From Saprospiraceae bacterium (GTDB lineage: Bacteria > Bacteroidota > Bacteroidia > Chitinophagales > Saprospiraceae), in contig JAKVCU010000002.1 in the NCBI GenBank assembly GCA_022448955.1, positions 39,006 to 103,005 of the forward strand: DNA of 64,000 nt, read 5' to 3'. The position numbers were made by a program, and so were the translations under genes. The notes beneath the pieces are model-generated. The model made no database searches and was not told the DNA's origin. It worked only from the letters and a program-made list of their open reading frames with translations. Of this stretch, positions 1 to 23,062 are shown piece by piece; the first letter of the stretch is position 1; each line of letters starts with the position of its first letter.

Positions 1-2319
1 TTTTCGAAAGAGACCAATCGAATAGAAATGCTGAATGGTTCACAATGGCTTGAGCTAGCAAAAGAAGCATGGACCAACAGCTACAACGATGCTATAACTG
101 ATAATGATCCATCTAATGACGCTACCTATGATATCTCTAATGATTACCAAAAATTCTGGAACGAAATCTTACCAGAAGGGCTAAGCCGAGAGGTTGCCGA
201 AATGACCAATACAGATTGGATCGACGAAACACTCCAAGATGGTTTTTTTCAAGAAATGAACCTTTCCACTTCTGGAGGAAATGAAAAAACACTGTTTTAT
301 ATTGGAGGAACCTATCGAGACGAAAAAGGAATTTTTGTAGGAAATAATTTTAAAAGGTACAATGCGCGAGTTAATCTTGACCATCATCCTACGGAGTACC
401 TATCTATTGGCGCTCGAACAGCCTTTACTGTTACAGATAGTGATATTATTCCAATTTCTTGGGCTGGAGGTCTTGGTACTGCTCAAAGTCAAGCACTTCC
501 TTTTTGGCCAATTTTTAATGAAGATGGCACCTATTTCAATGCTCAATCTGGAAATAATGTGGCAGCTGAGTTAGCCAATACAGAAATGAATCAGAAAGGT
601 ACCTCCATTTTAGGAAATGTATATGCACAGTTGAAATTCTTGAAAAATTTTACACTGCGTTCTGAATTTGGAATCAATAATATTTATAAAAAAGAGTTTT
701 ACTATCGTTCTGCAGTTATAGAACCCGAAGCTATATCCACCTCTGTTTTGTCTGAAAGCCAAAACTGGAATATGAATAATACGCTCTCTTATTCTAATAG
801 CTTTGGGCGCCACTCCATTGATATAGTAGGTGGAATGAACGCAACTAAAAATGACTACTTCCAAAACGTAATCAATGGGGAAACTTTCCCAAACCCTGCA
901 TTAAAAAATCCTGAAAATGCAGCTATTCAGACAGCCTCTGTAAACACTACTCAATTTAGTTTTCTTTCTTTTTTGGGCCGCCTAAACTACCGCTTTGATG
1001 ATAAATACTTGTTAGGTGTCAGTGTTCGGCGTGATGGATCTTCAAGGTTTGGTTCTGGCAATCGATGGGGTACTTTTCCCGCTGTTTCTTTAGGTTGGAT
1101 TATCTCAGAAGAAAACTTCTTAAAAGATGCAAAAGTCCTTAGTTTCTTAAAATTAAGGGCAAGCTATGGGGAAACGGGCAATGCAGAGATTGGTAATTTC
1201 GAATATTTTGGTGCTTTCGTTACCAATAACTATGTAGATCGCCCAGGAATTGTAGTCCAAGAGATTGATAATAATTCGCTGAGCTGGGAAAGTACCAAAC
1301 AGTATGATGTAGGGGTGGATATTGGACTGTGGGGTGGCAGAGTAGAAGCTGGCGTAGATGTCTATCTCAAGCAAACCGACGACTTATTGACTCAAGTTGA
1401 TGTTTCTTCTCTTTCCGGTGTCGAAAGAGTAACTAGTAATATTGGCTCACTCGAAAACAAAGGCTTCGATCTATCCATTACTACACACAATACTAGAGGC
1501 AAGCTAAAATGGGTTTCCAACATAAATCTAGCTTATAATACCAATCAGATAACGGACTTAGGCGGTTTAGACTTTATTCCGGGGCAGCTATTTGGATTAG
1601 GAGCTATTGGCTTAGGACAACCGGTAGGCGCAAGGTATACTGTTCCTTGGGCAGGTATTGCTTCAAGTGATATATCTTTAATTGTAAGCGACCCCGATGA
1701 TCCATCTTTACAAAATGAAATTCAAGTAAAAGGGGGAGACGAGTTATTTATTAATCAATTTGGTGAACTCACTAATATTTATAATCCTAATGACCAAGTT
1801 TTTATTGGAAATCCAACCCCACTTTGGTCAGGAGGCTTCACTAATTCTTTTTCCTATAAAAACTTTGATCTAAGTGTTTTGATCACCTTCGCAACAGGCC
1901 ATGATCTTTCCAATGATGAACGAAGGTTTCAATATGCTCCGTTCGGATTCGGATGGACTATGATGGCAAATGGGATGGAGCGCTGGCAAAACCAAGGTGA
2001 CCTCACTGATATGCATAGAGTAACATGGGCTGCACCCAATAGAAATTATACCTCTAGCAGAGTCATTACGGATGCTGACTTTGCAAGACTTAAAGACCTC
2101 ACTATTGGCTATAGTTTTCCAAAGTCATTATTGCAAAAGTGGAAGCTCCATGACTTTAGGATTTATGCAAAAGGTACTAACCTCGCTACTCTCACTTCCT
2201 ATAACGGTTGGGATCCAGAGTACAACAGAGACGGAGCAGGTAATGTAGGCCAAAGCAAATCATGGCTCCCATCTCCTCAAGCTAGAAGTATCTCTTTTGG
2301 CATAAATATTGGCTTATAG
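1..2319 (+). CDS. SusC/RagA-family TonB-linked outer membrane protein, 5'-truncated by the window edge
   Basis: Frame open from base 1; SusC-like C-terminal barrel (RFDDKYLLGVSVRRDGSSRFG, WGTFPAVSLGWIISEE, DFARLKDLTIGYSFPK); SusD follows directly. Confidence 0.93.
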   Translation, partial: FSKETNRIEMLNGSQWLELAKEAWTNSYNDAITDNDPSNDATYDISNDYQKFWNEILPEGLSREVAEMTNTDWIDETLQDGFFQEMNLSTSGGNEKTLFYIGGTYRDEKGIFVGNNFKRYNARVNLDHHPTEYLSIGARTAFTVTDSDIIPISWAGGLGTAQSQALPFWPIFNEDGTYFNAQSGNNVAAELANTEMNQKGTSILGNVYAQLKFLKNFTLRSEFGINNIYKKEFYYRSAVIEPEAISTSVLSESQNWNMNNTLSYSNSFGRHSIDIVGGMNATKNDYFQNVINGETFPNPALKNPENAAIQTASVNTTQFSFLSFLGRLNYRFDDKYLLGVSVRRDGSSRFGSGNRWGTFPAVSLGWIISEENFLKDAKVLSFLKLRASYGETGNAEIGNFEYFGAFVTNNYVDRPGIVVQEIDNNSLSWESTKQYDVGVDIGLWGGRVEAGVDVYLKQTDDLLTQVDVSSLSGVERVTSNIGSLENKGFDLSITTHNTRGKLKWVSNINLAYNTNQITDLGGLDFIPGQLFGLGAIGLGQPVGARYTVPWAGIASSDISLIVSDPDDPSLQNEIQVKGGDELFINQFGELTNIYNPNDQVFIGNPTPLWSGGFTNSFSYKNFDLSVLITFATGHDLSNDERRFQYAPFGFGWTMMANGMERWQNQGDLTDMHRVTWAAPNRNYTSSRVITDADFARLKDLTIGYSFPKSLLQKWKLHDFRIYAKGTNLATLTSYNGWDPEYNRDGAGNVGQSKSWLPSPQARSISFGINIGL

Positions 2320-2357
2320 CTATTGCAAAATCATAAACACTTGAAAAGAAACATTTT

Positions 2358-3704
2358 ATGGCTAACATTAAATATATACTGGCATTCAACATCATACTTC
2401 TTCTCTCTTCCTGCAGTGACTTCCTCAATCTAGAGCCTGAAACAAGCCTTTCAAGCGCAGTAGCCTTTGATAATATTGAAGGTATTGAAGCAGGAATCAA
2501 TGGCGCCTATTCCATTATTCATTCCGATTGGGTGGAACGACAATATATTTTTGCTGAATGTTTAATGAGTTCCGTAAAACAGGTTAATGCACTCTCTAAT
2601 TCCAATTATACGCAGGCACTTACACATGAAAATTGGTCGGATTTATTCAATATATCAGGCTATTTCTGGCAAATGTCCTATCGTACTATCGATGTTTCAA
2701 ACCAAATTATCCAAGCCATTCCAAATATTAATGCAGATAATGATAAAACAGCAGCTGATAAAGCACGCTTAGAAGGAGAAGCCTATTTTTTGAGGGGTTT
2801 AATGTATTTTGGATTGAATCGCTTTTTCGCCCAACCACAAAATGGTCTTTCTGTACCAATACTGACAACACCTTATCAGCCAGATCAATTTCCTTTCAGA
2901 GCAAGTATAGAGGAGACAAAAGCTCAAGTCATTGCAGATCTAGAACAGGCAGAATCTTTGATGCAGAATATAGAAAGTAATGATGGGAGAGCAACTATAT
3001 GGTCAGTACGAGGAATGCTAGCTCGTGCTTACTTCGAATTTAAAGACTATCAGAAAGCACAAGAATATGCCAACTTAGTGATAGAAAGTGGTCGATTTGC
3101 CCTCAAGGACGGTCAGGTAGGCTCCGCTTACAGTACTGACATCTCCTCTGAAAATATTTTCACCTTTCTCTCTGCAGCAAATGATCGAGCAGCCAATAAC
3201 TTATATGAACGATTTAGTATAAATAATGCAAATGTTCAGCTATCCTTATCTGCTGATTTTTGGAATCAAATAAATCAAGAACCTACTGACTTAAGAATAG
3301 ATGAATTACATACTGATTTAGGTGGTGGAGTAGCTTGCCATAAATATGACGTACGTAATATGAATATCCCATTCCTAAGATTACCAGAAATGTACCTAAT
3401 TCGAGCAGAATCTAAAGCAGAAAATAATGACTTAGATGGGGGATTGGTGGATTTGAATCGTCTTCGCCAAAGAGTAGGCCTGAGCGCTACAGATTACGTA
3501 AACCAATCAGATTTGTTAGAAAAAATATTCCATAACCGCACAGTTGAAATGTCAATGGAAGGCCAAAACTTCCACAACTTAAAACGCTTAGAACAACCAA
3601 TTGGTGGTTATCCTTGGGAAGAAGCCAGATTCAAGTTAGTATTTTTTATCCCATTAAAAGAAATTCAACTCAACCCAAATCTTATCCAAAATGAAATATG
3701 GTAA
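2358..3704 (+). CDS. SusD/RagB-family nutrient-binding outer membrane lipoprotein
   Basis: Lipoprotein signal (LLLSSCSDFLNLEP), RGLMYFGLNRFFAQP, C-terminal RLPEMYLIRAESKAENND; directly after SusC. Confidence 0.95.
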   Translation: MANIKYILAFNIILLLSSCSDFLNLEPETSLSSAVAFDNIEGIEAGINGAYSIIHSDWVERQYIFAECLMSSVKQVNALSNSNYTQALTHENWSDLFNISGYFWQMSYRTIDVSNQIIQAIPNINADNDKTAADKARLEGEAYFLRGLMYFGLNRFFAQPQNGLSVPILTTPYQPDQFPFRASIEETKAQVIADLEQAESLMQNIESNDGRATIWSVRGMLARAYFEFKDYQKAQEYANLVIESGRFALKDGQVGSAYSTDISSENIFTFLSAANDRAANNLYERFSINNANVQLSLSADFWNQINQEPTDLRIDELHTDLGGGVACHKYDVRNMNIPFLRLPEMYLIRAESKAENNDLDGGLVDLNRLRQRVGLSATDYVNQSDLLEKIFHNRTVEMSMEGQNFHNLKRLEQPIGGYPWEEARFKLVFFIPLKEIQLNPNLIQNEIW

Positions 3705-5700
3705 CCTTCCACTCAGTTGGTCATTTTTTGGATATCAAGAAGTTAAAATTATATCCAATAAGATCTATATTCTTATAAATCAGGTAATAGATCGATCATA
3801 TATATTATGCATTTTATTCAGTTTATTCCTGTATAGCTTGACAGCTCAATCGTTTTTCGAAGAGGTCGCTCAACAATCTGGAATAGATTATACTTATTCT
3901 ACCGTTAATTATCTAGGGGGAGGGGCTGCCTTTTTTGATTATGATAATGATGGAGATGAAGATATCTGGGTAGCTGGAGGAGTAAAGCAAGACGTATTCT
4001 TTGAAAACGATGGCAATGGAAATTTTACAGAGATTGGTGCTCAAATAGGATTAGATGCAGCTAATGGCAATGTAACTTCTGGTGTGATAACAGGAGATTT
4101 AGATAATGATGGCTTTCGTGATGTTATGACGATTCCTCACATTGGCCATCATCCTCTATTGTTTAGAAATAACGGAAATGGTACTTTTTCTGAAATATCA
4201 GCAGAAGCAGGTATTGGGTTAGATGAATATAAAGCTCAAAGTCATGCAGCTGCTATGGCAGATGTTAATTTGGATGGCTACCTCGATATTTATTTAGCCA
4301 CCTATATCGATAATATAAACAGTATTTATGACCAATCTGGCGCTGTAGTTGGCTTTGATCATGATTGTTTTAAAGATTTCCTATTTATCAATAATGGTGA
4401 CTGGACCTTCACTGAATCTTCTGCTCAATATGCCATTAACAATGAGGGATGTGCTTTAGCCGTCACTTTTACAGATTATGATGGAGATGCTGATGCTGAT
4501 ATAATGGTGGCCAATGACTTCGGTGAATGGATTATTCCCAATGTTTTGTATCAAAATCAATTCCCAGAAAGTCATTATTCTGATGTAAGCCAAGCCTCTA
4601 ATGCTGATCCAGCTGTTTATGGTATGGGTATTGCTATCGGTGATTATGATCAAGACTTAGATTTAGATTATTACATCACCAATCTAGGTCGCAATGTTTT
4701 GATCGAATATCAAGCCGATGGGATATTCGAAGATAAAACAGATCAAAGAGGAATTGAGGATACCTTTATGAGTGGTGACTCCCTCCTCGCATCCGGATGG
4801 GGAACTGCATTTGTAGATGTAGATAATGACCAAGATTTGGATCTTTTTGTTTGTAATGGTTTCATTCCTTCTGCACTATTTATTGATAATCATGAATACA
4901 ATCAAAATCGTCTTTTTCTAAATGATGGCAATCCACAGGGCCTAGGTTACTCATTTTCTGAAATTGCCTCTGGCTCAGATTTAGCAGATGGTGGAAGAGG
5001 TAGAGGCTACGCCTATTCTGACTACGATAATGATGGAGATTTAGATTTTTTAGTCGTAAACATCAATCACCATACAATGGGTGACCCTATCGAAAAGGTA
5101 CAGCTCTACAGAAATGAACTTGAAAACGATAACAACTGGCTTCAACTTAAACTTGAAGGAACTATAAACAATAAAGATGCCTTTGGCTCTACAGTCAAAA
5201 TTGTAGTCGGTAATCACTCTTGGCTTCATGATTACAATGGTGGGTTTGGATCATTTGCCTCTCAGCATAGTAGTATAGCTCATTTCGGACTAGGCCAAGC
5301 ATCACAAGTAGACAGCCTAGTCATTAGCTGGCCTGGTGGCAATAAGAGCTATCACACCAATATACCTGCAAACCAAAAAGTAAAAATTACTGAAGATGGA
5401 GATCTAACTACCACAAATAACTTATCAAGTAGCCCAACGAATTTTCGGATGGATGTTTATCCTAACCCTTTTTCTGATCAAGTGAAGGTGGCTTTTGACC
5501 TCCAAAAGGGAAGTCAAATAAATATTGCTGTCTTTGATGCATTGGGAAAAAAAGTAGAAACACTGAAAAATGCCTATTTGCATAGGGGAGCCCATTCAAT
5601 TTATTGGACTCCTTCTGTTCAACATAAAACTACTGCTTGGTATGTAGTCGTACTTAAAAGCGAACATTATTTGATATCACAAAGAGTGTTTTATCAATAG
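3691..5700 (+). CDS. FG-GAP/VCBS repeat + ASPIC/UnbV (CRTAC1-like) protein with T9SS C-terminal sorting domain
   Basis: Repeated DxDxDGDxD motifs (FFDYDNDGDEDIWVAGG), ASPIC/UnbV tail (SQHSSIAHFGLGQASQVDSLVISWPGG), C-terminal VYPNPFSDQV; true start may be downstream of 3691. Confidence 0.9.
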   Translation: MKYGNLPLSWSFFGYQEVKIISNKIYILINQVIDRSYILCILFSLFLYSLTAQSFFEEVAQQSGIDYTYSTVNYLGGGAAFFDYDNDGDEDIWVAGGVKQDVFFENDGNGNFTEIGAQIGLDAANGNVTSGVITGDLDNDGFRDVMTIPHIGHHPLLFRNNGNGTFSEISAEAGIGLDEYKAQSHAAAMADVNLDGYLDIYLATYIDNINSIYDQSGAVVGFDHDCFKDFLFINNGDWTFTESSAQYAINNEGCALAVTFTDYDGDADADIMVANDFGEWIIPNVLYQNQFPESHYSDVSQASNADPAVYGMGIAIGDYDQDLDLDYYITNLGRNVLIEYQADGIFEDKTDQRGIEDTFMSGDSLLASGWGTAFVDVDNDQDLDLFVCNGFIPSALFIDNHEYNQNRLFLNDGNPQGLGYSFSEIASGSDLADGGRGRGYAYSDYDNDGDLDFLVVNINHHTMGDPIEKVQLYRNELENDNNWLQLKLEGTINNKDAFGSTVKIVVGNHSWLHDYNGGFGSFASQHSSIAHFGLGQASQVDSLVISWPGGNKSYHTNIPANQKVKITEDGDLTTTNNLSSSPTNFRMDVYPNPFSDQVKVAFDLQKGSQINIAVFDALGKKVETLKNAYLHRGAHSIYWTPSVQHKTTAWYVVVLKSEHYLISQRVFYQ

Positions 5701-5791
5701 ATATATAGTGATTTAAGTTAATGGCCTAAATGTTGCATAAAGCTATTAACTCAAATTTTTCATTTTTAATATTTAAAATACAGATTTCATT

Positions 5792-7012
5792 ATGAAAAAA
5801 TTGTACATACTTCTAATGGCAGTTGTGCTTGCCTTTTCCATCCATGCACAAGATAATACAAGCATTCCTCTGGTAGGAACTTGTCTAAATCCTGATGAAG
5901 GAACTATTGAATTTCTTTTTGATCTAAATGCAAATTGCCCAGAAGCAGATCCGAATGGCGTCTTACCTGGAGTTCAGCAAATGGGGTTTCACTCTGGTGC
6001 CAATGATTGGTCTTCTATCGTGGCTTGGGATGATGCAGCCGCAGTACCAGCAGTCAACAATGGTAACGACACTTTAACTTTGACCATAAATGTCTCCGAT
6101 TATTATGGCGTTGCTTTCGGTGACCTTAGTGATATCAAAATGGTAGTCAATAATGGTTTTGCTGATCCTTCCGACCCTTGGACAGTAGCATTACGCGATT
6201 CTACAGATGGCTCTAGCTTTGGGGATCCTACAGATTGCTCTGATCTCATTATGGTAATTTCTGACACACCAACCTGTAGTGATCTCAATCAAACTTCCAG
6301 TTTGGTATTATGGTCGGATACAGGAGATAGCGAAACTTGTGTAGATCCAGCATCTGGTAAAATTAAAATTGATCTAGATTATGAAATTCGTTGTATAGAA
6401 GCAGATTCTACAGGCGTTTTAGCTGGAGCTCCCTCTTTAGGGTTTCATTCTGGAGCCAATAACTGGTCAACTATAGTTGGTTGGGATGATCCTGGTGCAG
6501 TTGAACTCGTTAATAATGGTAGTGACAACTTTTCTGCTGTCATTGATGTAATGGACTACTACGGTATGCCTTTAGAAGACTTAGAGAACATTAACATGAT
6601 TGCTAACAATGGCCCAAATGATCCTGCAGCAGCATGGGATGTAGCTATTAGAGACCCTAAAGATGGTGGTAGCTTTGGCAACCCAAATCCTTGCTCTGAT
6701 ATTTTCATGCTAGTCAGTGAAGCACCAACATGTGACCTTTCCACTGGTACGAAAGATATTCAATTGCAGCACAGTTTCAAAGTGGCACCGAATCCATTTA
6801 GTAATCGTACTTTCTTAGAATTTGATAATCCTCAGAACCAAACATTTAGCCTAGTCATTACAAATATGTCTGGTCAAATCGTTAGGAGAATGAGTAATAT
6901 CACTGGAGAGCGAGTGTTAGTAGAAAGAGAGGATATGCCAGCAGGCATGTTTGTGGCAAATTTAATTGATGAAGAAGGCAATTTTGCTATTACTAAGTTA
7001 ATCGTAAAATAA
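5792..7012 (+). CDS. Exported T9SS-sorted protein with two tandem ~150-aa domains, possible surface glycan-binding protein
   Basis: Signal peptide; GFHSGAN(D/N)WS(S/T)IV.WDD motif repeated at aa 66 and 218; C-terminal VAPNPFSNRTFLEF sorting domain. Confidence 0.8.
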   Translation: MKKLYILLMAVVLAFSIHAQDNTSIPLVGTCLNPDEGTIEFLFDLNANCPEADPNGVLPGVQQMGFHSGANDWSSIVAWDDAAAVPAVNNGNDTLTLTINVSDYYGVAFGDLSDIKMVVNNGFADPSDPWTVALRDSTDGSSFGDPTDCSDLIMVISDTPTCSDLNQTSSLVLWSDTGDSETCVDPASGKIKIDLDYEIRCIEADSTGVLAGAPSLGFHSGANNWSTIVGWDDPGAVELVNNGSDNFSAVIDVMDYYGMPLEDLENINMIANNGPNDPAAAWDVAIRDPKDGGSFGNPNPCSDIFMLVSEAPTCDLSTGTKDIQLQHSFKVAPNPFSNRTFLEFDNPQNQTFSLVITNMSGQIVRRMSNITGERVLVEREDMPAGMFVANLIDEEGNFAITKLIVK

Positions 7013-7035
7013 ATAACGCTCCTATTTTTTACGGT

Positions 7036-7063
7036 AAAAGCGATACCCAAGCGTATCGCTTTT
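7036..7063 (+). terminator. Hairpin AAAAGCGATAC-N6-GTATCGCTTTT, likely intrinsic terminator
   Basis: 11-bp perfect stem just downstream of the ORF ending at 7012. Confidence 0.6.
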
Positions 7064-7083
7064 GCTCCATAGAAAAACCAATT

Positions 7084-8397
7084 ATGAATAGATATAGCCA
7101 ATCACCTTTTTGTTTTATTATAGTTTTTAGCTTGCTGTTTTTTTCTTGCCAACCGGAAGAGAAAAAGCAAGAAATCTCAAAAATACACGCAGTAATTAAT
7201 GATCAAAAACCTGCTCTTGATTCCTTATTAGATTATTATGTTGATGAAGATTTTTATCCCTTTGTTTATGCTAGATTAGAAAATATCGATGGAAGTCTAC
7301 TTTATGAACATGGCCAACAGAACGCAAACTTATTGCCTAATACCACAATCAATAAAGACACTTGGATCAGAATTTGGTCGATGAGTAAAATTGTGACCAT
7401 CACCTTAGCCCTAGATTTGATTGAAGAGGGATTACTCCATTTTGATGATCCAGTTACCAAATTCATTCCTGAATTTAAGAACCTCCAAGTTGCTCGAGCA
7501 AATGATGGTAGCCCACTTACCAATGTTAATTTATCAACCCTAGAAAACATATGCCCCCTACAACTTGTCCCTAATGATTCTGTAATGACTATCCTTCATC
7601 TTCTAAACCATCAGGCAGGATTTTACTATGCCACTACTGGTTTGGAATGTTTAGATTCCATGCTTGCCGAAAAGAATATCGCTACATCTAAGAATAATCA
7701 GGATTTTATCGACCGATTAGCTAGCCTACCTTTAATTCAGCAGCCTGGTGAAAGCGATTATTATGGCATTAACACCACTGTCTTAGGCTTCGTAGCAGAA
7801 CGGGCCTCCGGTAAAAGTTTAAAACAATTAGTGGATGATAAACTTGGCAAAGGTCTAAAGATAGCAGGTTTACAATATGGAATCCCTGATGGTACTACTT
7901 TAATCCCAAAATTTACAGGTAGGGATTCGATGCTAAGAAAAGCCAAGAGAGGTGAATTGGACATCTTCGGTCCAGATGTTCCCGATTATGATCCTGATCA
8001 TGAATTGTACCTCGGAGGTGAGGGCATGTTAGCTACTGCAGACGGTTATGCCGATTTTGTACGCATGTTAGTCCAACATGGCAGCCTTAATGGCAACCGC
8101 TTTTTAGAAAAAGAGACTGTTGAAGATATCTATGCTCCACATAGTCAACTTGATAACCCATATGGCTATAATGGCTATAACCTTTGGGTTAGTGGTGATT
8201 CAATGCGTTTAAAAGGCCTTGGAGATGCTGGACTATGGCTTGGTGGAGGCTATGAGTGCACTCATTTTTGGGCAGATCCAAAACGTAATTTTGTAGGCGT
8301 TATTATGTCTCAAAATAATCAAGTAAAATCTCCTGGTTATGAAATGAATGATAAATTCAAAGGATTACTTTACAAAGCACTCTTCGAAATAGAATAA
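7084..8397 (+). CDS. Serine hydrolase, beta-lactamase/class C (PBP-like) family, lipoprotein
   Basis: SMSK (SxxK) motif, LLNHQAGF, LGGGYECTHFWADP; lipoprotein signal FSCQPEE. Confidence 0.88.
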   Translation: MNRYSQSPFCFIIVFSLLFFSCQPEEKKQEISKIHAVINDQKPALDSLLDYYVDEDFYPFVYARLENIDGSLLYEHGQQNANLLPNTTINKDTWIRIWSMSKIVTITLALDLIEEGLLHFDDPVTKFIPEFKNLQVARANDGSPLTNVNLSTLENICPLQLVPNDSVMTILHLLNHQAGFYYATTGLECLDSMLAEKNIATSKNNQDFIDRLASLPLIQQPGESDYYGINTTVLGFVAERASGKSLKQLVDDKLGKGLKIAGLQYGIPDGTTLIPKFTGRDSMLRKAKRGELDIFGPDVPDYDPDHELYLGGEGMLATADGYADFVRMLVQHGSLNGNRFLEKETVEDIYAPHSQLDNPYGYNGYNLWVSGDSMRLKGLGDAGLWLGGGYECTHFWADPKRNFVGVIMSQNNQVKSPGYEMNDKFKGLLYKALFEIE

Positions 8398-8431
8398 AAT
8401 GCTTGGTATTGCACTAAATATCTTAGAGTTT

Positions 8432-8465: not shown

Positions 8466-10166
8466 ATGAAATACATTCTTTTTTTTATTGTTTTGTTTCC
8501 TACAATTCTTCTTGCGCAGGACTCTAGCTTTTCGAACCCGATTCTGCCTGGAGGCCACCCAGACCCCTCTATTTGCCGAGTAGGTGATGATTATTACATC
8601 GTAAACTCAACATTTGAGTATTTTCCTGCACTACCTATTCACCATTCAAAAGATTTGGTCAACTGGGAGCTAATCGGTTATGGACTACATAGAAAAGAAC
8701 AAGCATCTGGTGTTGTAAATTTAATAGATGTTCAACAAAATGGTGGTATACACGCACCAACAATCAGATATCACGAGGGACTATTTTATATTATTGTCAC
8801 TAATATTTATGGCTCTAAAGTGCCTGGCCTACCTGGCCAGAACGTAAACTTTATCATTACTGCTAAAAACCCTGCAGGCCCATGGTCTGATCCACACGTA
8901 ATTGAAGGGGCTCCAGGAATAGATCCTGATATCTTTTTCGATGATGATGGAAAAGTCTATTTCATAGGTACTCATAAACCAGATGAGCCTAATGAGAATG
9001 GTATTGGAGAAATCTGGGTCCAAGAACTAGATTTGCAAAACTGGAAATTAAAAGGAAAACGTTCTTCTGTTTGGAAAGGTGCCTGTGGTGGTTGCTGTGT
9101 GGAGGGGCCACATATCTACAAGGAAAATGGTTTATACTACCTTCTTATAGCAGAAGGTGGAACGGGCCTAAATCATGCTGTAATGATTGCCGCTAGTCAA
9201 CAAATTAGAGGACCTTATGACCCCAACCCTCGAAACCCAATATTGACTTCACGTCACTTATCTAACAACTACTGGGTCCACAGCACTGGACATGCTGATC
9301 TGGTTGAGTTACCTGATGGCCGCTGGTATATGGTTGCGCTGGGTAAAAGAAGTGATGTAAATGGCTCTACGAATATGGGGAGAGAAACTCACCTGATTCC
9401 AGTAGTTTGGGAACCAGCTATTATCAGATGGCAGCAAGTCAGCGACACTGTTTGGGAACCTGTAGAATATTTATGGCCGGTTTGTGCGCCTGAAACTGGC
9501 AGAGTAGAACGCCATCAAAAACTACCTTTCCCTAATCAACCACAATATAGGAATGATGCTTTTTCGGATAATTTTGACGCTGATCAGTTACAATATGATT
9601 GGAACTTCAGAAGAGTACCTCAGGATAATACCTATTCGCTTACAGCCAAAAAAGGAAATTTGCGCCTTTATTTAAAGCCTCAAGTTCAGGCACTAAGAAC
9701 GCAGTATAGCTTCATTGGCTTTAGACAAAAAGAAAACAACTTTGAATATGCTGCCAAAATGGCCTTCTCACCCAAAACGGAAAAATCAGAGGCTGGAATT
9801 AGTGTCATGCAGCAAGATAATAACTATATCAATTTTACTATAAAAAAGACTGATAATGATATGGTCTTACAGCTAGTAGTAAAAGGTCGAAATGAAGAAA
9901 GTCAAACCATAAAACAGCAACTATTAAAAAAATATAATGGTAATATCATTTTAAAATTAATCTCAAAAAATAAACGCTATCATTATTTATACTCCCTCAA
10001 TGGTGGTGCATCTTTTGAAACATTTCAAGAAACTTCTGATGAGCTCGTTCTCTGTTATGGTTACATCGGAACAAACATTGGAATTTATGCTTCTTCCAAT
10101 GGGAAAACAACAAATGAATATGCGGATTTTGACTGGATCAGCTATAAAGGATTTCCAGATTATTAG
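8466..10166 (+). CDS. Glycoside hydrolase family 43 (beta-xylosidase/arabinofuranosidase-like) with C-terminal beta-sandwich domain
   Basis: NPILPGGHPDPSICRVGDDYYIVNSTFEYFPALPIHHSKDLVNWELIG, IDPDIFFDDDGKVYF, VEGPHIYKENGLYYLL. Confidence 0.95.
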   Translation: MKYILFFIVLFPTILLAQDSSFSNPILPGGHPDPSICRVGDDYYIVNSTFEYFPALPIHHSKDLVNWELIGYGLHRKEQASGVVNLIDVQQNGGIHAPTIRYHEGLFYIIVTNIYGSKVPGLPGQNVNFIITAKNPAGPWSDPHVIEGAPGIDPDIFFDDDGKVYFIGTHKPDEPNENGIGEIWVQELDLQNWKLKGKRSSVWKGACGGCCVEGPHIYKENGLYYLLIAEGGTGLNHAVMIAASQQIRGPYDPNPRNPILTSRHLSNNYWVHSTGHADLVELPDGRWYMVALGKRSDVNGSTNMGRETHLIPVVWEPAIIRWQQVSDTVWEPVEYLWPVCAPETGRVERHQKLPFPNQPQYRNDAFSDNFDADQLQYDWNFRRVPQDNTYSLTAKKGNLRLYLKPQVQALRTQYSFIGFRQKENNFEYAAKMAFSPKTEKSEAGISVMQQDNNYINFTIKKTDNDMVLQLVVKGRNEESQTIKQQLLKKYNGNIILKLISKNKRYHYLYSLNGGASFETFQETSDELVLCYGYIGTNIGIYASSNGKTTNEYADFDWISYKGFPDY

Positions 10167-14087: not shown

Positions 14088-15437
14088 ATGAAGAATTCTC
14101 ATTCATTTCTTGTATTGCCTTTGTTTTATCTTTTGCTTTCATGTAATCCTCTAGAAAAGCAAAATAACCAAGCTTCTCCTAATATTATCCTTATCATGGC
14201 AGATGATTTGGGATATGAAACCATTACCGCTAATGGAGGCAACTCCTACTCTACTCCAGCTATAGATAAGATGGCAGCAAGTGGTATGCGATTCGAACAC
14301 TGCTATGCTCAGCCTCTCTGCACACCAAGTCGAGTGAAGATTATGACTGGTATTTACAACGTAAGAAATTATCAAGAATTTGGCTTACTAGATGATAAAC
14401 AGACTACTTTTGGTCATATTTTTCGTGATGCAGGTTATGCTACCTGCATTGTTGGCAAATGGCAACTAGGGAAAGATTCACTCAGTCCCTATAATGCAGG
14501 CTTCGATGAACATTGCCTGTGGCAACTCAGTGAAGGACGTACAGATGGTACTGCTCGAGACACGCGCTTTTCTGAACCTGTTTTGGAAGTCAATGGTATC
14601 CTAAACACCTATAATCAGAATGAATTTGGCCCTAAGATTGTCAGTGATTATGCGCTTGACTTTATCAAAAGACAGTCCCTCAATAAAAAGCCTTTTTTCC
14701 TTTACTATCCTATGCTTTTAACTCATTGTCCTTTTAGCCCTACACCAGATTCACCAGAGTGGCAGATAGATACCCAAGCAATCATGACCTATAAGGGTAA
14801 AGCTAAATATTTTAAAGATATGATGGCTTATACTGATAAAATAGTCGGATCTATCAACGACCAACTCCAATCTTTAGGAATAGCAGATAATACAATTGTG
14901 ATTTTTACAGCGGATAATGGTACAGATAAACCGATTGTCTCTCAAATGAACAAAAAAGAAGTGGTGGGTGCTAAAGGTAAATCAACTGATGCCGGAACTC
15001 GTGTTCCACTTATTGTAAAATGGGATCAAAATATACAAGCTGAACAAGTAAGTAATAGCCTAATCGATTTAAGTGATATCCTTCCTACTATTTGTGCTGC
15101 TGCAAATATAGAAGTTCCAGAAGTACTCGATATTGATGGATGGAGTTTTTTGCCTGAGCTATTAGGTCAAGAAGGAGAAAAGCGAAAGTGGGTATATAGT
15201 TGGTATTCAAGAAATGGAAAGGAAGAGGAGGCCATTGTTTTTGCTCGCAATCACGATTACAAACTTTATCAATCAGGAGCTTACCACTACCTTCCAAATG
15301 ATTTGTTAGAGGAACACCCTCTTCACTTAGAGCAACTAAACAAGGAAGAGCAACTGACTTATGAGATGCTAGATAAGGTATTGAAGCAATATCAGAAAAG
15401 AAGACTTGAAAACCAGAAAGACATGTCTTTCGAATAA
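14088..15437 (+). CDS. Sulfatase (S1 family, Cys-type), lipoprotein
   Basis: SPNIILIMADDLGYETI and LCTPSRVKIMTG; the listed ORF starts at a TTG at 13995, but the ATG at 14088 precedes a lipoprotein signal MKNSHSFLVLPLFYLLLSC. Confidence 0.92.
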   Translation: MKNSHSFLVLPLFYLLLSCNPLEKQNNQASPNIILIMADDLGYETITANGGNSYSTPAIDKMAASGMRFEHCYAQPLCTPSRVKIMTGIYNVRNYQEFGLLDDKQTTFGHIFRDAGYATCIVGKWQLGKDSLSPYNAGFDEHCLWQLSEGRTDGTARDTRFSEPVLEVNGILNTYNQNEFGPKIVSDYALDFIKRQSLNKKPFFLYYPMLLTHCPFSPTPDSPEWQIDTQAIMTYKGKAKYFKDMMAYTDKIVGSINDQLQSLGIADNTIVIFTADNGTDKPIVSQMNKKEVVGAKGKSTDAGTRVPLIVKWDQNIQAEQVSNSLIDLSDILPTICAAANIEVPEVLDIDGWSFLPELLGQEGEKRKWVYSWYSRNGKEEEAIVFARNHDYKLYQSGAYHYLPNDLLEEHPLHLEQLNKEEQLTYEMLDKVLKQYQKRRLENQKDMSFE

Positions 15438-15458
15438 ATTCGTTCAAATAGGAAGCTT

Positions 15459-18065
15459 ATGTTCAAAACAGCCTACTTACTTTTACTTTTAAATGGTATC
15501 CTATTAAGCTGTACACCAGCTATTGATCAAGCCAAGCTTGAACAAAAAATCGAGAAATACATTCAGATACCCTCTCCAAAATGGGAGGATCAGGTGATCT
15601 ATTTTATCGTAACTGACCGATTTATGGATGGAGATACTACTAATAATGATCAAGGTGTCGGGGAATATAAAAAAGGGGACGAAAGATTTTGGAATGGTGG
15701 CGACCTAAAAGGTATCACCCAAAAAATTGATTATATCAAACAATTGGGTGCTACAGCTATTTGGATTACCCCTCCAGTAGCCAACCAATGGCGAAACCCT
15801 CAAAAAACAGGAACAGGTAATCATGGATATTGGGCCAAAAATTTTGTAGAAGTTGATCGGCATTATGGGTCTTTAGAAGACTATCAAGCGCTATCAGCTA
15901 ATCTTCATAAAAATGAAATGTACCTCATTCAGGATGTTGTAGTCAACCATCTTGGAGATTTTTATACCTATACAGATGAATATGACCCTAGTGATGTAAC
16001 TAAAAATTTCAAATTACATGAAGTCGCACAACCCACACAATTTCCCTTTTATCATAATAATGCGACCAAAGACGAAGATAGAGAAATGGCTATTTACCAT
16101 TTTGCTCCCAGTTTTCATGACCATTCAGACACTGTTAAAAAACGAGCTTACCAATTTGCCGATCTTGATGATTTAAATACTGCTAATCCTTTCGTCAGAA
16201 CTATTCTTCGAAAATCTTATAATTTTTGGTTAGATGAGGTAGGTGTAGATGGCTTTCGTTTTGATACTCCACATATGGTAGAACATGAATTTTGGAATGA
16301 TTTCTTGCATTCAAATGAACCTGAAGCACTAGGTATTATAAACTTTGCTAAAAAACTAGGAAAGGATCATTTCTTAAATTTTGGGGAAACAGCTGTACTA
16401 ACTCAGGCTTATGAAGATCAAGGAAGCAAAGAAGCCGCATCTTATTTGGGATCTAAAGAAAAGCCAGAAATGAATTCTGTACTTAACTTCCCACTCTTTA
16501 ATGCTATACAAGACGTATTCAAAGGGTTAAAATCCACCAATCAACTCAGCTATCGCTTAGAAGCCAACAAACAATATTTTGAATCCCCAGAATACCTCTG
16601 CAACTTTATCGACAATCATGATGGAGCACGTTTTTTGAGTCAATCAGACAGAGCGTCTTTCCGCCAAGCTCTCTTGTTCATTCTAAGTATTCCTGGAATA
16701 CCTGTTATCTATTATGGAACAGAGCAAGAATTGCTCGGAATGCGCCAAACCATGTTTAAAGGAGGCGTAGGTTCACTAGATAAAAATCATTTTGATACAA
16801 AAAGCGAAGCATTTCAATTTGTCCAAAGCCTAATTCAATTAAGAAAAGACAATCCAGCTTTTCGAAGGGGTGATTTAAAGGTATTAAGAGATATTTCTGA
16901 TGGCCCTGGAATCTTTGCCTACCAGATGGCATATCAAGACGAAAATATTATCATTTTATTCAATACTTCTGGAAGTAAACAATTAGCAGATAACTTGCCT
17001 ACCGACTTTGATGCTGGAACCATATTGGAAACAGTTTTTAGTTTATCTAATTCTAAAGAAGAATTCGTAGTAAATGAAAAGGGAAACTTAACAGTCTTCC
17101 TCCCCCCAAAAGCAGGAATGGTACTTCGCCCTACAGAGAGAAAAAATATAAAAATGGCTGCATCTGTACCTATTAAAATCAAGCCCTTGGCCACAAAAGT
17201 ATTTGATGGCGATTATCTCAATATTTCAGGAAGTTCGATCATTAATAAGGAACTTTTCATTTGTGTAGATGGAGACTTGGAGCTTGCCCAAAAGGTAACT
17301 TTTACGACAGCCAAACAATGGTCTGCTAGGCTTCCATTATACAATCTACAAAATGGAAAACATAGAATAACGCTATTTTATTGGCCAACTAGTGATAGTG
17401 ATCCCATACATTCGAGTGCCGTAGAATTTGAACTGGACAATAAGGCTATATTATTAGCTGAATATTATGATGAGCTTGGGGATGACCGTGGGCTAAATAA
17501 TAACATACAATATGCAACACATGAAAGTTTCTCTCACCAAGGAGATATTGAATCCATAAAAATTTACAAAGTAGGAACTAACTTAAAAGTTGATTTGACA
17601 ATGAAGGAGTTAAGTCAAATGTGGCTTCCGCCAAATGGATTTGATCATATTTTGCTCAATATTTATATCGATTTGCCGAATAAGATGGGTATCCAAGATC
17701 TACCTCAGCAAAATTATAAAATACCCGACAATGGCCATTGGGATTATTTGATATCAACTGCAGGCTTTGCAAATGCGATGTATTCCAGTAATAGTGCCAG
17801 TAGCACTGAGGTTGGTGAGCCTGTTGGGCCTACTCCTATTGTAAAAGGAAATTTGCAGAAGCGGACCATTAGCTTTTTAATAGCTTCAAAATCATTGGGA
17901 TCTCCCCAAAATCTAAAGGGAACTAAACTCTATTTGAATACTTGGGATGGAGGTCCTGGTAATCTAAAAAGCATGAACCCCAAGCCAAGTCTTTGGAACC
18001 CAGGTGGAGGTGATCAGTCTGATCCTATTTTTTTTGATGACACCGAGCTGATTATTCTCAACTGA
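15459..18065 (+). CDS. GH13 alpha-amylase-family lipoprotein with glucodextranase-type C-terminal domain
   Basis: VIYFIVTDRFMDGD, DGFRFDTPHMV, NFGETAV, FIDNHD (GH13 regions); C-terminal IKIYKVGTNLKVDLTMKEL...FDHILLNIYID. Confidence 0.93.
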   Translation: MFKTAYLLLLLNGILLSCTPAIDQAKLEQKIEKYIQIPSPKWEDQVIYFIVTDRFMDGDTTNNDQGVGEYKKGDERFWNGGDLKGITQKIDYIKQLGATAIWITPPVANQWRNPQKTGTGNHGYWAKNFVEVDRHYGSLEDYQALSANLHKNEMYLIQDVVVNHLGDFYTYTDEYDPSDVTKNFKLHEVAQPTQFPFYHNNATKDEDREMAIYHFAPSFHDHSDTVKKRAYQFADLDDLNTANPFVRTILRKSYNFWLDEVGVDGFRFDTPHMVEHEFWNDFLHSNEPEALGIINFAKKLGKDHFLNFGETAVLTQAYEDQGSKEAASYLGSKEKPEMNSVLNFPLFNAIQDVFKGLKSTNQLSYRLEANKQYFESPEYLCNFIDNHDGARFLSQSDRASFRQALLFILSIPGIPVIYYGTEQELLGMRQTMFKGGVGSLDKNHFDTKSEAFQFVQSLIQLRKDNPAFRRGDLKVLRDISDGPGIFAYQMAYQDENIIILFNTSGSKQLADNLPTDFDAGTILETVFSLSNSKEEFVVNEKGNLTVFLPPKAGMVLRPTERKNIKMAASVPIKIKPLATKVFDGDYLNISGSSIINKELFICVDGDLELAQKVTFTTAKQWSARLPLYNLQNGKHRITLFYWPTSDSDPIHSSAVEFELDNKAILLAEYYDELGDDRGLNNNIQYATHESFSHQGDIESIKIYKVGTNLKVDLTMKELSQMWLPPNGFDHILLNIYIDLPNKMGIQDLPQQNYKIPDNGHWDYLISTAGFANAMYSSNSASSTEVGEPVGPTPIVKGNLQKRTISFLIASKSLGSPQNLKGTKLYLNTWDGGPGNLKSMNPKPSLWNPGGGDQSDPIFFDDTELIILN

Positions 18066-18172
18066 GTCTATATAGCTTATCATAAAAAAGAAAAGGAAAA
18101 CCACAAAAAAGCAAAAAATATACATCTGCCAATGGATAGAATCTTTTTTAAACTGAACGAATAACTAAAGAA

Positions 18173-19879
18173 ATGAAAAATCTACAGATAGTTTTTGGCA
18201 TCGCCATTTTTTTCTTTTTTTTGTCTTGTCAGCCACAACAAGAAGGAAAGAGAGGTACCCAACAAATGCCAAATATACTTTGGCTTGTAGCAGAGGATAT
18301 GAGTCCCAACATCCCACCATTTGGAGATTCAACTATCCAAACACCAAATCTGAGCAGATTGGCGGCTGAAGGAGTTCGTTACACAAATGTATACTCCGTA
18401 TCAGGGGTTTGTTCCCCTAGTAGAGCAGCCATTACCACTGGTATGTATCCAAATAGTATTGGTGCCCATCATATGAGAACCCTCTATCAACAACCCGCAG
18501 CAAGAGAAAAAGGCTTAATCAACTACGAATGTGTACCACCTGCAGAGGTTAAAATGCTCAGCGAAATCATGCGGCAGAACGCTTATTATTGCACAAATAA
18601 TCGTAAAGAAGATTATCAATTTTTTCCTTCAAAAATGGCATGGGATGAATCTAGCATTTATGCACACTGGCGGAACCGCCCCGAAGGGAAAGCATTCTTT
18701 TCTATCTTCAATTTTGGGGTAACGCATGAATCCAATTTATGGAATCCAGGTTATCGCCACTTTGACCATGATACTTTTCCTCCTCCAAGAGGAAAGAAGA
18801 ATTTTTGGAAAGGTTTTGAAAATGGAGCAAAACCATGGGCCATTTCGGATAGCCTTCAGCTCAATATTCCCCCTTATCTACCTAATAATGACATCGTGAG
18901 AAAGGATGTTCGTCGAATGTATTCAAATATTGCTGAAATGGATAAGCATGTTGGCATGATTCTTAATCAATTAGAAAAAGATGGTTTGCTAGAAAACACC
19001 ATAATAGTATGGTTTACAGATCATGGAGGCCCTTTACCTCGTCAAAAAAGATTATTATATGATGCAGGCATTCATGTGCCTATGATTATTCGATATCCTC
19101 ATCAAAAAGCCGCAGGAACAATAGATAACCAACTGATCAGTTTTATTGACTTTGCTCCAAATCTACTGTCACTAATCCAAGTTAAACCTCCGGATTGGAT
19201 GCAAGGGCGTCCATTTTCCGGCCAGTACAAACCAGACGATTCAAGATCATATATTCATGCTGCTGCTGACCGATTCGATGAAACCTACGATATGATTCGG
19301 GCAGTCAGAGATCATAGGTTTAAATATTTGAAAAACTTCCACGCAGATCAACCTTACTATTTGCCACTCGCTTATCGCGAAAACATGGCTAGTATGCAAG
19401 AATTGTTGCGACTCAGAAAAGAAAATCAGTTGGATAGTCTACAAATGTTATGGTTTAGGGAAACTAAACCTGAAGAAGAACTTTTTGATACAGCTAATGA
19501 CCCTCATGAGTTGCATAATCTAGCTAATGACCCGAATTATACAGCCAAATTAATAGAATTAAGAAAAGAGTGTGAAAGATGGATGAATGAGATTGAAGAT
19601 AAAGGATTTATCAAAGAGATAGATCTAATTGAAACATTTTGGCCAAATAAAATACAGCCAATCACTAGCAACCCAATAATAAAGAAGAAGAAGAACCGTA
19701 TCCATATATCTTGTTTAACAGAAGGCGCCTCTATCGGCTACAAACTGGCCGAAGATGAAAAAGATGGACTAGGATGGCGTATTTATGAGAAGCCTTTAAA
19801 TATGAAGGATAATCAACCATTAAAAGTTATTGCTCATCGACTAGGATATGCTGTGAGCGATACCATATCAATTAATTAA
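18173..19879 (+). CDS. Sulfatase (S1 family, heparan N-sulfatase-like), lipoprotein
   Basis: MPNILWLVAEDMSPNIPPFGD and VCSPSRAAITTGMYPNSIGAHHMRT. Confidence 0.94.
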   Translation: MKNLQIVFGIAIFFFFLSCQPQQEGKRGTQQMPNILWLVAEDMSPNIPPFGDSTIQTPNLSRLAAEGVRYTNVYSVSGVCSPSRAAITTGMYPNSIGAHHMRTLYQQPAAREKGLINYECVPPAEVKMLSEIMRQNAYYCTNNRKEDYQFFPSKMAWDESSIYAHWRNRPEGKAFFSIFNFGVTHESNLWNPGYRHFDHDTFPPPRGKKNFWKGFENGAKPWAISDSLQLNIPPYLPNNDIVRKDVRRMYSNIAEMDKHVGMILNQLEKDGLLENTIIVWFTDHGGPLPRQKRLLYDAGIHVPMIIRYPHQKAAGTIDNQLISFIDFAPNLLSLIQVKPPDWMQGRPFSGQYKPDDSRSYIHAAADRFDETYDMIRAVRDHRFKYLKNFHADQPYYLPLAYRENMASMQELLRLRKENQLDSLQMLWFRETKPEEELFDTANDPHELHNLANDPNYTAKLIELRKECERWMNEIEDKGFIKEIDLIETFWPNKIQPITSNPIIKKKKNRIHISCLTEGASIGYKLAEDEKDGLGWRIYEKPLNMKDNQPLKVIAHRLGYAVSDTISIN

Positions 19880-19964
19880 TCACTTGATGTTTAAGCTATC
19901 AATATAGAACATAAAATTAGCGGATTATTACACTTTGCAAAGTTTCTATTCAAGCGAATTATTG

Positions 19965-19991
19965 CTTTGCACAAGCTCAGACCCATAACTT
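19965..19991 (+). promoter_or_regulatory. Upstream motif shared with 8432-8460 (CTTTGCACAAGCTCAGACCCATAACTT)
   Basis: Pairwise match to the GH43 upstream region. Confidence 0.35.
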
Positions 19992-20025
19992 AACTCTAAG
20001 TTTTTGATTCATAAAGATCAAGATT

Positions 20026-21429
20026 ATGAATATTAAAATTTTCATTTTTTCTATTACCAGTCTATTTCTTTTTTTGCTTTGTAACAAAGAAGAAGAAAAA
20101 GAAAGCTTACCTAATTTCATCATTATTTTTGCAGACGATTTGGGATATGGAGACTTAGGTTGTTTTGGGCATCCTACGATAAAAACACCAAACCTAGATA
20201 GAATGGCCCAGAAAGGGCTAAAAATGACCCAATTCTATGTAGCTGCTTCTATCTGTACACCAAGTCGTGCGGGTCTGCTGACTGGTAAACTACCTATTCG
20301 CAATGGTATGTGCGGAAAAAGAGGAGTTTTGTTCCCTGATTCAGGGGGTGGCTTACAAACATCAGAGACGACTATAGCAAAAGCTTTAAAAAGAAAAAAT
20401 TATCAGACTGCCTGTATCGGTAAATGGCACCTTGGTCATCTAGCAGAATACCTGCCTACCAAACATGGTTTTGACTATTACTTTGGAATACCATATTCGA
20501 ATGACATGTCGCCAGAGCAATCCAACTGGGACTATGCCAAAGAGAATTTTCCACCTACTCCACTTATCGAGAATGATTCCATCATTGAAAGAGAGCCAGA
20601 TCAAAGCCAATTGACCGCTCGATACACAGAAAAAGCGGTTAATTTTATCAAAGATAATAAAGACTACCCTTTCTTTTTGTACATGCCTCATACCTTTCCA
20701 CATATTCCACTCTATATTGATAGTCTTAATGCAGGAAGAAGTAAAAGAGGAATTTACGGAGATGTGGTAGAAGTCTTAGATTCAAGTGTAGGCAAAATAT
20801 TAAATATATTAGAAGAATACCATCTAGAGGAAAATACCTTTGTGCTCTTCACCAGTGACAACGGTCCTTGGGGTTGGGCTGGAATTAATGGTGGCTCTCA
20901 AGGCCTACTAAAGGGAAAAAAAGGAAGCCCTTGGGAAGGTGGGTTTAGAGTTCCTGCTATTGCACATATGCCAAATACTATTCCCGCTAATACTACCTCA
21001 GATGCAATTGTCACAGCCTTGGATATTTTTCCTACACTACTTCATATGGCTGGAATAGATATTTCAGATTTCGAAAAAATCGATGGAAAAGATGTATCCC
21101 GAACATTTACAAAGCAAGAGGAAGTGCAGCAAGAAGTATTTTATTATCGCAATACTGATTTTGTAGCATACAGAAAGGCCGCTTGGAAAATTTTCCTTGA
21201 AGATCCAGACCCTTGGAATGATGAATTTATGGAAAAAGATCTTCCTCTACTCTTTAACCTCAATGAAGATCCTTCTGAACAATTTAATCTAGCTGAACAG
21301 TACCCAAATGTAGTAGCAGAACTCATACAAGCTGCAGCTACACATACAAATACGGTAGAGATCGTACCCTCTCAATTAGACAGCATCTTGATCGATTTAT
21401 TAAACAGTAAACAAACGAAAAATGACTAA
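20026..21429 (+). CDS. Sulfatase (arylsulfatase A-like), lipoprotein
   Basis: LPNFIIIFADDLGYGDLGCFGHPTIKTPNLDRMA; ICTPSRAGLLTGKLPIRNGM; CIGKWHLGH. Confidence 0.95.
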   Translation: MNIKIFIFSITSLFLFLLCNKEEEKESLPNFIIIFADDLGYGDLGCFGHPTIKTPNLDRMAQKGLKMTQFYVAASICTPSRAGLLTGKLPIRNGMCGKRGVLFPDSGGGLQTSETTIAKALKRKNYQTACIGKWHLGHLAEYLPTKHGFDYYFGIPYSNDMSPEQSNWDYAKENFPPTPLIENDSIIEREPDQSQLTARYTEKAVNFIKDNKDYPFFLYMPHTFPHIPLYIDSLNAGRSKRGIYGDVVEVLDSSVGKILNILEEYHLEENTFVLFTSDNGPWGWAGINGGSQGLLKGKKGSPWEGGFRVPAIAHMPNTIPANTTSDAIVTALDIFPTLLHMAGIDISDFEKIDGKDVSRTFTKQEEVQQEVFYYRNTDFVAYRKAAWKIFLEDPDPWNDEFMEKDLPLLFNLNEDPSEQFNLAEQYPNVVAELIQAAATHTNTVEIVPSQLDSILIDLLNSKQTKND

Positions 21430-23062
21430 TCAATTACAAACCCTAGACTGGGTAGTACTTGCACTATACTTCATTGTACTTTTTGCAGTGGCCATTTGGG
21501 TGATTATCCAGAAAAACCGAAACACAGAAGACTATTTCTTAGCTGGGCGAAATGTTGGATGGTTCATTATTGGTGCCTCTATCTTTGCCTCAAATATAGG
21601 TTCTGAACACGTCGTTGGCTTAGCAGGAACAGGCGCAGAATCAGGTATGCCTATGGCACATTATGAACTCCATGCATGGATTGTTCTGCTTCTAGGCTGG
21701 TTGTTTTTACCCTTCTACATGAGAAGTGGGGTATTTACGATGCCTGAATTTTTAGAGAAGAGGTTTGATAGTCGCTCTCGTTGGTTTCTTTCTCTTTTTT
21801 CAATTATTGGTTATGTATTAACCAAAGTTTCTGTCACCATTTATGCCGGAGGTGTGGTCGTCAGTTCATTACTCGGTATGACCTTCATGGAGGGTGCTGT
21901 CATTACCGTTGTCGTTACGGGACTTTATACCGTATTAGGAGGTATGCGTGCTGTGGTCTATACAGAAGCATTACAAACTATCATATTAATTCTTGGCTCT
22001 TTACTTTTGACTTATAAGGGCTTCGAAGCAATTGGTAGCTGGGAAGAATTAAAGGCATTAGCTGGTGCCGAACATTTTAATATGTGGAGGCCTTCAACAG
22101 ATAAAGAGTATCCTTGGACAGGGATGGTTTTTGGAGGCGCCATTGTTGGAATCTGGTATTGGTGTACAGATCAGTATATTGTACAAAGAACCTTAGCCGC
22201 TCATAATATTGAAATTGGAAGAAGAGGAGCTATATTTGGAGCTTATCTAAAAATCTTACCTATCTTCATTTTTCTAATTCCAGGAATTATTGCTTTTGCA
22301 CTAAAACAAAAGGGTGTAATTGACTATGAAAAAAGTGATCAAGTGTTTCCAGTTCTTGTACAGGCTTTGTTACCAAGCGGCATGAAAGGCCTTGTGGCAG
22401 GAGGCTTAATGGCTGCTTTAATGAGTTCTCTGGCATCCGTATTTAATTCAAGTTCTACACTATTCACCATAGATATCTTCAAGAAACTTTACCCAAACAC
22501 ATCGGAAAAACAATTAGTCCGAATTGGCCAAATAGCCACTGCAGTTGTCGTAATTTTAGGAATGGCTTGGATTCCAATTATGGAAAAAATTGGGGGTGGT
22601 ACACTTTACCGATACTTACAAAGTGTACAATCTTATATAGCTCCTCCTATTACAACAGTTTTTTTACTTGGCATACTATGGAAACGAGTAAATGCTAAGG
22701 GAGCAATTGCTACTTTAATATTTGGATTATTATTAGCAGCTGTTAGGATTATTGCTGAGCTTTCGTATCTAGGTCCAGATGGAAATTTAATAGAAGGTGC
22801 CCATGGACCTTTAGCCTCCTTTGCTGCTATTAATTTTGCTCATATGGCCATTTACATGTTCCTTGCATGTATATTTATTTGCACTCTAGTCAGTTTAGCT
22901 ACAGCGCCACCAACAGAATCAAAGCTATTAGGTCTCACTTTTGGAACGCTAAGCACAGAACAAAAAATGGCAGCAAAAAATAGCTATTCAACTTGGGATA
23001 TCGTAGCATCAGTAGCCTTAGTTCTTGTAATCATTGGGATACTCGTTTATTTCCAAGCCTGA
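21422..23062 (+). CDS. Sodium:solute symporter (SSS/SGLT family)
   Basis: AGRNVGWFIIGASIFASNIGSEHVVGLAGTG; multiple TM segments; 8-bp overlap with the upstream sulfatase. Confidence 0.95.
   Translation: MTNQLQTLDWVVLALYFIVLFAVAIWVIIQKNRNTEDYFLAGRNVGWFIIGASIFASNIGSEHVVGLAGTGAESGMPMAHYELHAWIVLLLGWLFLPFYMRSGVFTMPEFLEKRFDSRSRWFLSLFSIIGYVLTKVSVTIYAGGVVVSSLLGMTFMEGAVITVVVTGLYTVLGGMRAVVYTEALQTIILILGSLLLTYKGFEAIGSWEELKALAGAEHFNMWRPSTDKEYPWTGMVFGGAIVGIWYWCTDQYIVQRTLAAHNIEIGRRGAIFGAYLKILPIFIFLIPGIIAFALKQKGVIDYEKSDQVFPVLVQALLPSGMKGLVAGGLMAALMSSLASVFNSSSTLFTIDIFKKLYPNTSEKQLVRIGQIATAVVVILGMAWIPIMEKIGGGTLYRYLQSVQSYIAPPITTVFLLGILWKRVNAKGAIATLIFGLLLAAVRIIAELSYLGPDGNLIEGAHGPLASFAAINFAHMAIYMFLACIFICTLVSLATAPPTESKLLGLTFGTLSTEQKMAAKNSYSTWDIVASVALVLVIIGILVYFQA

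Follow-up and report, generated by a model that had tools for sequence, protein, structure and literature searches.

The 64,000-nucleotide stretch of Saprospiraceae DNA analysed here (G000:C112:39006-103005, from a genome of 6.4 Mb in 230 contigs; hereafter the window) begins with a cluster of about 23 kb that comprises 13 genes, all located on the + strand, and that is a SusCD-type polysaccharide utilisation locus (PUL). Judging from its sequence, we consider it rather probable that the locus is complete and targets a sulfated, ester-substituted heteroglycan that comprises alpha-linked glucose and a substituent that is a pentose or resembles one, and that it represents a variant of the PUL type combining GH13, GH43_12 and sulfatase genes.

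The assignment as a PUL, already made in a preliminary description of the window, holds because susC adjoins susD and because at least two degradative carbohydrate-active enzymes (GH43 and GH13) and four sulfatases are encoded in the same cluster. All 13 genes of that description were found again on the + strand and at the same coordinates, with intergenic distances of -14 to +146 nucleotides. Pfam matches were obtained for SusD, the FG-GAP/ASPIC protein, the two serine hydrolases SH1 and SH2 (PF00144), GH43 with GH43_C2, the four sulfatases Sul1 to Sul4 (PF00884), GH13 with Glucodextran_C and the SSS symporter. The genes are as follows:

1 to 2319, + strand: susC (TonB-dependent transporter), 3' part; 84% identical to the ortholog in the related genome G091
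2358 to 3704, + strand: susD, lipoprotein (PF14322 and PF07980)
3691 to 5700, + strand: FG-GAP/ASPIC (CRTAC-type) protein with a type IX secretion system (T9SS) sorting tail (PF13517, PF07593, PF18962)
5792 to 7012, + strand: dup, duplicated-domain, T9SS-sorted protein (domain repeats and T9SS tail)
7084 to 8397, + strand: SH1, beta-lactamase-fold serine hydrolase, lipoprotein (PF00144, SMSK motif)
8466 to 10166, + strand: GH43 with a GH43_C2 domain, xylosidase/arabinofuranosidase type (Pfam)
10211 to 11845, + strand: Sul1, sulfatase (PF00884)
11842 to 13998, + strand: SH2, 718 residues, with a weakly GH2_N-like N-terminal part and a C-terminal PF00144 domain (Pfam)
14088 to 15437, + strand: Sul2, sulfatase, lipoprotein (PF00884)
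15459 to 18065, + strand: GH13, alpha-amylase-type lipoprotein with a Glucodextran_C module (Pfam)
18173 to 19879, + strand: Sul3, S1_8-type sulfatase, lipoprotein (PF00884; 268.6 bits to 9bb9)
20026 to 21429, + strand: Sul4, arylsulfatase-A-like sulfatase, lipoprotein (PF00884)
21422 to 23062, + strand: SSS sodium:solute symporter, last gene of the locus (PF00474)

The truncated SusC frame has no Pfam match and owes its identification to the G091 ortholog, which likewise lies 5' of susD. Its start is at contig position 38148, 858 nucleotides ahead of the window. The preliminary description had supposed that genes further upstream may complete the locus, but the extension yielded only these first 858 nucleotides of susC and no PUL enzyme. 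Upstream of susC follow 1.47 kb devoid of a sizeable open reading frame and then a gene for a sensor-kinase-like protein of 1002 residues (L009:12670-15678). The relatives G091, G101 and G073 have FecI/FecR-type genes ahead of susC, but no remnant of such genes was detected in the corresponding region here. Sul2 probably starts at about 14088 and not at the TTG codon at 13995. At its end, position 23062, the locus is followed by a convergent gene, and the best NCBIfam models of the SSS symporter include TIGR00813 and PRK10484.

New evidence that these enzymes belong together comes from their recurrence elsewhere. A near-complete locus is present in G091, which encodes SusD (70% identity), the FG-GAP/ASPIC protein (59%), two copies of dup, SH1 (72%), GH43 (78%), Sul1 (70%), SH2 (64%), GH13 (66%), Sul3 (74%) and Sul4 (74%), together with a GH10 enzyme upstream and a GH3 enzyme beyond Sul4. 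The core of susC, susD, ASPIC and dup genes also occurs in G073, G065 and G101 and, within the limits of the contigs, in G164, G095 and G045, the next genes being GH43, SH1 or both, or else GH13. Moreover, when 84,980 species were scanned with an alignment of GH13, genomes of Cyclobacteriaceae/Flammeovirgaceae came to light, seven of which are apparently planktonic. Sul1 (43-44%), GH13 (about 50%) and Sul4 (61-71%) occur together in all seven planktonic genomes, and Sul3 (64-66%) was seen in six of them, the contig of the seventh ending first. An ortholog of GH43 (59-66%) was found in these seven genomes and in the Cyclobacteriaceae genome G398, that is, in 8/8 Cyclobacteriaceae/Flammeovirgaceae genomes with a GH13 of this clade, and in six of the eight it shares a contig with GH13. 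By comparison, no GH43 ortholog was present at E<=1e-180 in any of the 394 other Bacteroidota genomes that were sampled. The set even extends to another phylum. A contig of a gammaproteobacterial metagenome-assembled genome (MAG; G408:C122) carries an MFS gene followed by GH43 (58%), Sul1 (55%), Sul4 (63%) and Sul3 (59%), and further holds a TonB receptor, more sulfatases, GH13 (38%), SH1 (60%), a cyclomaltodextrinase-type GH13 and a tannase/feruloyl esterase; SusC/D is absent from this contig. In a second gammaproteobacterial genome (G409), GH43 (54%), SH1 (49%) and GH13 (38%) lie on a single contig. That the enzymes form a real module is thus borne out in another family and another phylum. 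Since identities remain near 60% across phyla, these comparisons suggest that a working enzyme set was moved horizontally.

It could be argued that the window contains two independent neighbouring systems, namely an alpha-glucan set (SusCD, FG-GAP/ASPIC, dup and GH13) and a set of GH43, sulfatases and serine hydrolases that scavenges decorations and serves several glycans. Some relatives have dup and GH13 with no visible GH43 (L061, L070) and others dup and GH43 with no visible GH13 (L038, L071), the contigs ending early in both cases; moreover, Sul2 is the variable sulfatase of the locus and is replaced by one of another type in G091. However, GH43, Sul1, Sul3, Sul4 and GH13 stay together beside a different SusCD in the Cyclobacteriaceae, where SusC and SusD of the planktonic genomes, as far as visible, are only 36% and 26-28% identical to the window pair, and on one gammaproteobacterial contig. 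We therefore regard the division into two systems as unlikely and continue with a single pathway.

All four sulfatases possess an intact CxPSR-x4-TG motif. With 21 sulfatase matches in the whole genome, the clustering of four such genes in 11 kb can hardly be due to chance. The preliminary description had proposed to assign the sulfatases to SulfAtlas subfamilies, which succeeded for Sul3, while Sul1, Sul2 and Sul4 are left without a subfamily. Sul3, a predicted 2-O-sulfatase, matches the S1_8 family with 269 to 195 bits to the solved chains of S1_8A, S1_8B and S1_8C (best S1_8A, 9bb9), the best chain outside S1_8 reaching 103 bits. Within the lambda-carrageenan pathway, the S1_8 enzymes act as 2-O-sulfatases; the family as a whole, whose members act on 2-O-sulfate or N-sulfate, also includes a xylose-2-sulfate enzyme and an N-sulfoglucosamine enzyme (PMC12549532). 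In sequence, Sul3 is closest to S1_8A, a galactose-2-sulfate 2-O-sulfatase of that pathway. The nearest solved relatives of Sul4 are of the mammalian arylsulfatase A and steryl sulfatase type, and Sul1 and Sul2 have no close relative among solved enzymes. Two known PUL types were considered and ruled out: a carrageenan PUL, as the locus has no GH150, GH110 or GH2 enzyme, and an ulvan PUL, as it has no lyases.

The nearest CHARACTERISED relatives of GH43 are BoGH43B (5joz; 325 bits), the arabinofuranosidase of a xyloglucan PUL (PMC4967831), and beta-xylosidases including 5z5d. The score to 7jvh, which is named GH43_12, is 246 bits; both values are pairwise scores rather than scores of subfamily models. 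The resemblance to beta-xylosidases raises the question of whether the target is instead a sulfated, acetylated xylan or xylose-rich polymer, with GH43 as a beta-xylosidase, Sul3 as a xylose-2-sulfate sulfatase and GH13 serving only contaminating starch or short side chains. The xylose-2-sulfate 2-O-sulfatase within S1_8 and the GH10 and GH3 genes flanking the G091 locus fit such a substrate. Furthermore, sulfated xylan PULs that combine GH10, GH3 and GH43 with sulfatases have been described, and PULs for sulfated xylans or xylose-rich polymers have GH43 and sulfatases in common with the window (PMC6794258, PMC6298971). In contrast to these systems, the window locus has GH13 and lacks the xylanases GH10 and GH30 as well as GH3. 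GH13 is also retained in the planktonic and gammaproteobacterial loci, and dup is tied to GH13 and CBM48. A xylan target thus appears rather unlikely, although somewhat less so than two separate systems, and the heteroglycan with an alpha-glucan part is preferred.

This alpha-glucan part is indicated by GH13 and dup. The catalytic triad of GH13 (D269/E310/D388) is intact and common to it and its nearest solved relative, a Vibrio alpha-amylase (PDB 43wj/9x8f; 500 bits over 603 residues), whose sequence was assigned to Vibrio through comparison with the loci; PDB 9x81 matches the C-terminal part. A literature search on PDB 43wj/9x8f returned nothing relevant. In a FastTree phylogeny, the GH13 of the window groups with ten orthologs from Bacteroidota in one clade (support 1.0). 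The clade differs from the Vibrio enzyme in conserved regions, having NQWR rather than NQWW and DTPHMVEH rather than DTVKFVEH. The arginine is present in 11/11 clade members, whereas 51 other homologs carry tryptophan or tyrosine, and conserved region II reads DTPHMVEH or DTPMMVEH in all eleven. That the arginine contacts sulfate is only a guess because all eleven enzymes share one ancestor and because the GH13 of a similar gammaproteobacterial locus has tryptophan. GH13 homologs of like length occur away from any nearby sulfatase gene in MAGs of Ardenticatenaceae, Brevinematales and Spirochaetes (L131, L085, L086, L128). The gammaproteobacterial contig G408:C122 (L117) contains a second GH13-sulfatase pair alongside genes for an ABC-transporter ATPase and a LacI-like regulator. 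GH13-sulfatase loci of this kind also exist in L119 and L135 and hint at sulfated malto-oligosaccharides.

The dup gene lies directly before GH13 in loci L061 and L070 (genomes G045 and G065), and a dup homolog in G292 (L073) has four CBM48-type modules. It is probably a surface glycan-binding protein tied to alpha-glucans, and this link to GH13 and CBM48 suggests an alpha-glucan part in the substrate. The FG-GAP/ASPIC protein, which precedes dup in the relatives that were read, is likewise a probable surface glycan-binding protein. The closest solved relatives of SusD are SusD-like proteins to which no substrate is assigned.

SH1 and SH2 contain the SxxK motifs SMSK and SITK, respectively. 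The nearest solved relatives of SH1 are carboxylesterases (4ivi and Est-Y29), while SH2 has only weak matches to solved structures. SH1 is found in genomes of Saprospiraceae, Cyclobacteriaceae and Gammaproteobacteria that also have its partner enzymes (47-72% identity), and SH1, SH2, a SASA protein and a sulfatase are encoded consecutively in G398. Moreover, orthologs of Sul1 are fused to esterase domains, either N-terminally to BD-FAE (G091) or C-terminally to a PF00756 esterase (L061, L063, L082). Both SH1 and SH2 are absent from the seven planktonic genomes, and their locus contains other esterase genes, namely BD-FAE, SASA and GDSL (domains read in L082; same gene order in L078 and L081). 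Because of the fusions and of these other esterases, SH1 and SH2 are most likely glycan esterases, a role that the preliminary description had proposed and that gains support here. By association, the most economical interpretation is that the substrate must be de-esterified and that this would be the task of SH1 and SH2 in this bacterium. One might object that both are cell-wall or beta-lactam enzymes that reside in the locus by chance, since the genome has 29 PF00144 matches, so that two near a PUL are unremarkable alone, and several weak NCBIfam matches are to beta-lactamases and D-Ala carboxypeptidases. Given the conserved partnership of SH1, its carboxylesterase relatives and the other esterases where SH1 and SH2 are missing, we judge this objection improbable, even more so than the alternatives discussed above.

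The combination of genes was thought in the preliminary description to lie beyond the standard archetypes. This view has to be revised because Krueger et al. (2019) described PULs for complex alpha-glucans with several GH13 genes, often with GH65 and GH43_12 and sometimes with sulfatases, for which the substrate is unclear (PMC6794258). These PULs were reported from North Sea bacteria, namely Cyclobacteriaceae, NS5, Formosa and another genus (PMC6794258). The window locus likewise combines GH13, GH43 and sulfatases beside SusCD, and the Cyclobacteriaceae are the group in which the same enzymes were found here. The planktonic loci probably belong to the Krueger type. The window locus differs from it by one GH13 in place of several, by two SxxK hydrolases in place of BD-FAE and SASA, by a different SusCD, by the added FG-GAP/ASPIC and dup proteins and by its Saprospiraceae host. 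Provisionally, it may be regarded as a Saprospiraceae variant, new within a type already reported. No paper using the phrase 'sulfated alpha-glucan' was found in a literature search.

Several observations weigh against the proposed substrate and the unity of the pathway. GH65, which is often part of the Krueger type, is absent from the 13 genes. The eight Cyclobacteriaceae genomes are related to each other and were picked via GH13, and they are not independent draws. The gammaproteobacterial GH13 (38%) falls outside the Bacteroidota clade and may represent an independent recruitment. Furthermore, the GH43 ortholog lies beside another SusC/D and apart from sulfatases in G048 and G147 and occurs alone in G063, and GH13 occurs without a close GH43 in G101 and G045. 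SH2 has YNG at the position of the usual YxN motif, leaving its chemistry uncertain. Finally, structure predictions from three-sequence alignments were too poor for use, with mean predicted local distance difference test scores (pLDDT) of 46.5 for dup and 42.0 for SH2.

If the locus nevertheless acts on a heteroglycan of the proposed kind, the FG-GAP/ASPIC and dup proteins would hold the polymer on the cell surface, where the GH13 lipoprotein would cut internally in alpha-glucan stretches, and SusC/SusD would bring the oligosaccharides in. SH1 and SH2 would strip acyl esters and Sul1 to Sul4 the sulfates, with Sul3 acting at O-2. GH43 would then take off the uncovered pentose, and the SSS carrier would import the monosaccharide. 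A more far-reaching proposal, which we put forward only tentatively, is that horizontal transfer has spread GH43, Sul1, Sul3, Sul4, SH1 and GH13 as a single pathway among Saprospiraceae, planktonic Cyclobacteriaceae (where SH1 is missing) and a gammaproteobacterium. The target of this pathway would be an abundant and chemically undescribed marine heteroglycan that is sulfated and acylated and contains alpha-glucan. SH1 and SH2 would then found new beta-lactamase-fold carbohydrate esterase families, and the GH13 clade with the arginine would consist of amylases that have adapted to substrates bearing sulfate.

Since most of the enzymes are found together again in marine bacteria that belong to another family and to another phylum, the polymer is probably common. 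The core of GH43, Sul1, Sul3, Sul4, SH1 and GH13 shows which enzymes to express jointly. As the substrate is apparently both sulfated and esterified, polymers that have lost their esters through alkali treatment would be ill-suited for such tests. The enzyme set is also carried by a genome of the UBA4465 clade (L083), for which high SusC expression was reported during a North Sea bloom (PMC10877868), and the polymer may thus matter for marine carbon turnover. In this FRAM18_bin121 MAG (L083:9968-18486), GH13, Sul4 and susC are split over several frames, apparently through an assembly error or decay.

Two further genes of the window also deserve mention. The convergent gene next to the locus (23296-26574, - strand) encodes a second FG-GAP/ASPIC protein, which has a T9SS tail and weakly matches AMPK1_CBM (glycogen-binding); it may be another alpha-glucan surface protein. 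Further downstream (34339-37017, - strand), a TonB-dependent receptor has an unusual N-terminal FecR_C match ahead of carboxypeptidase-like domains.

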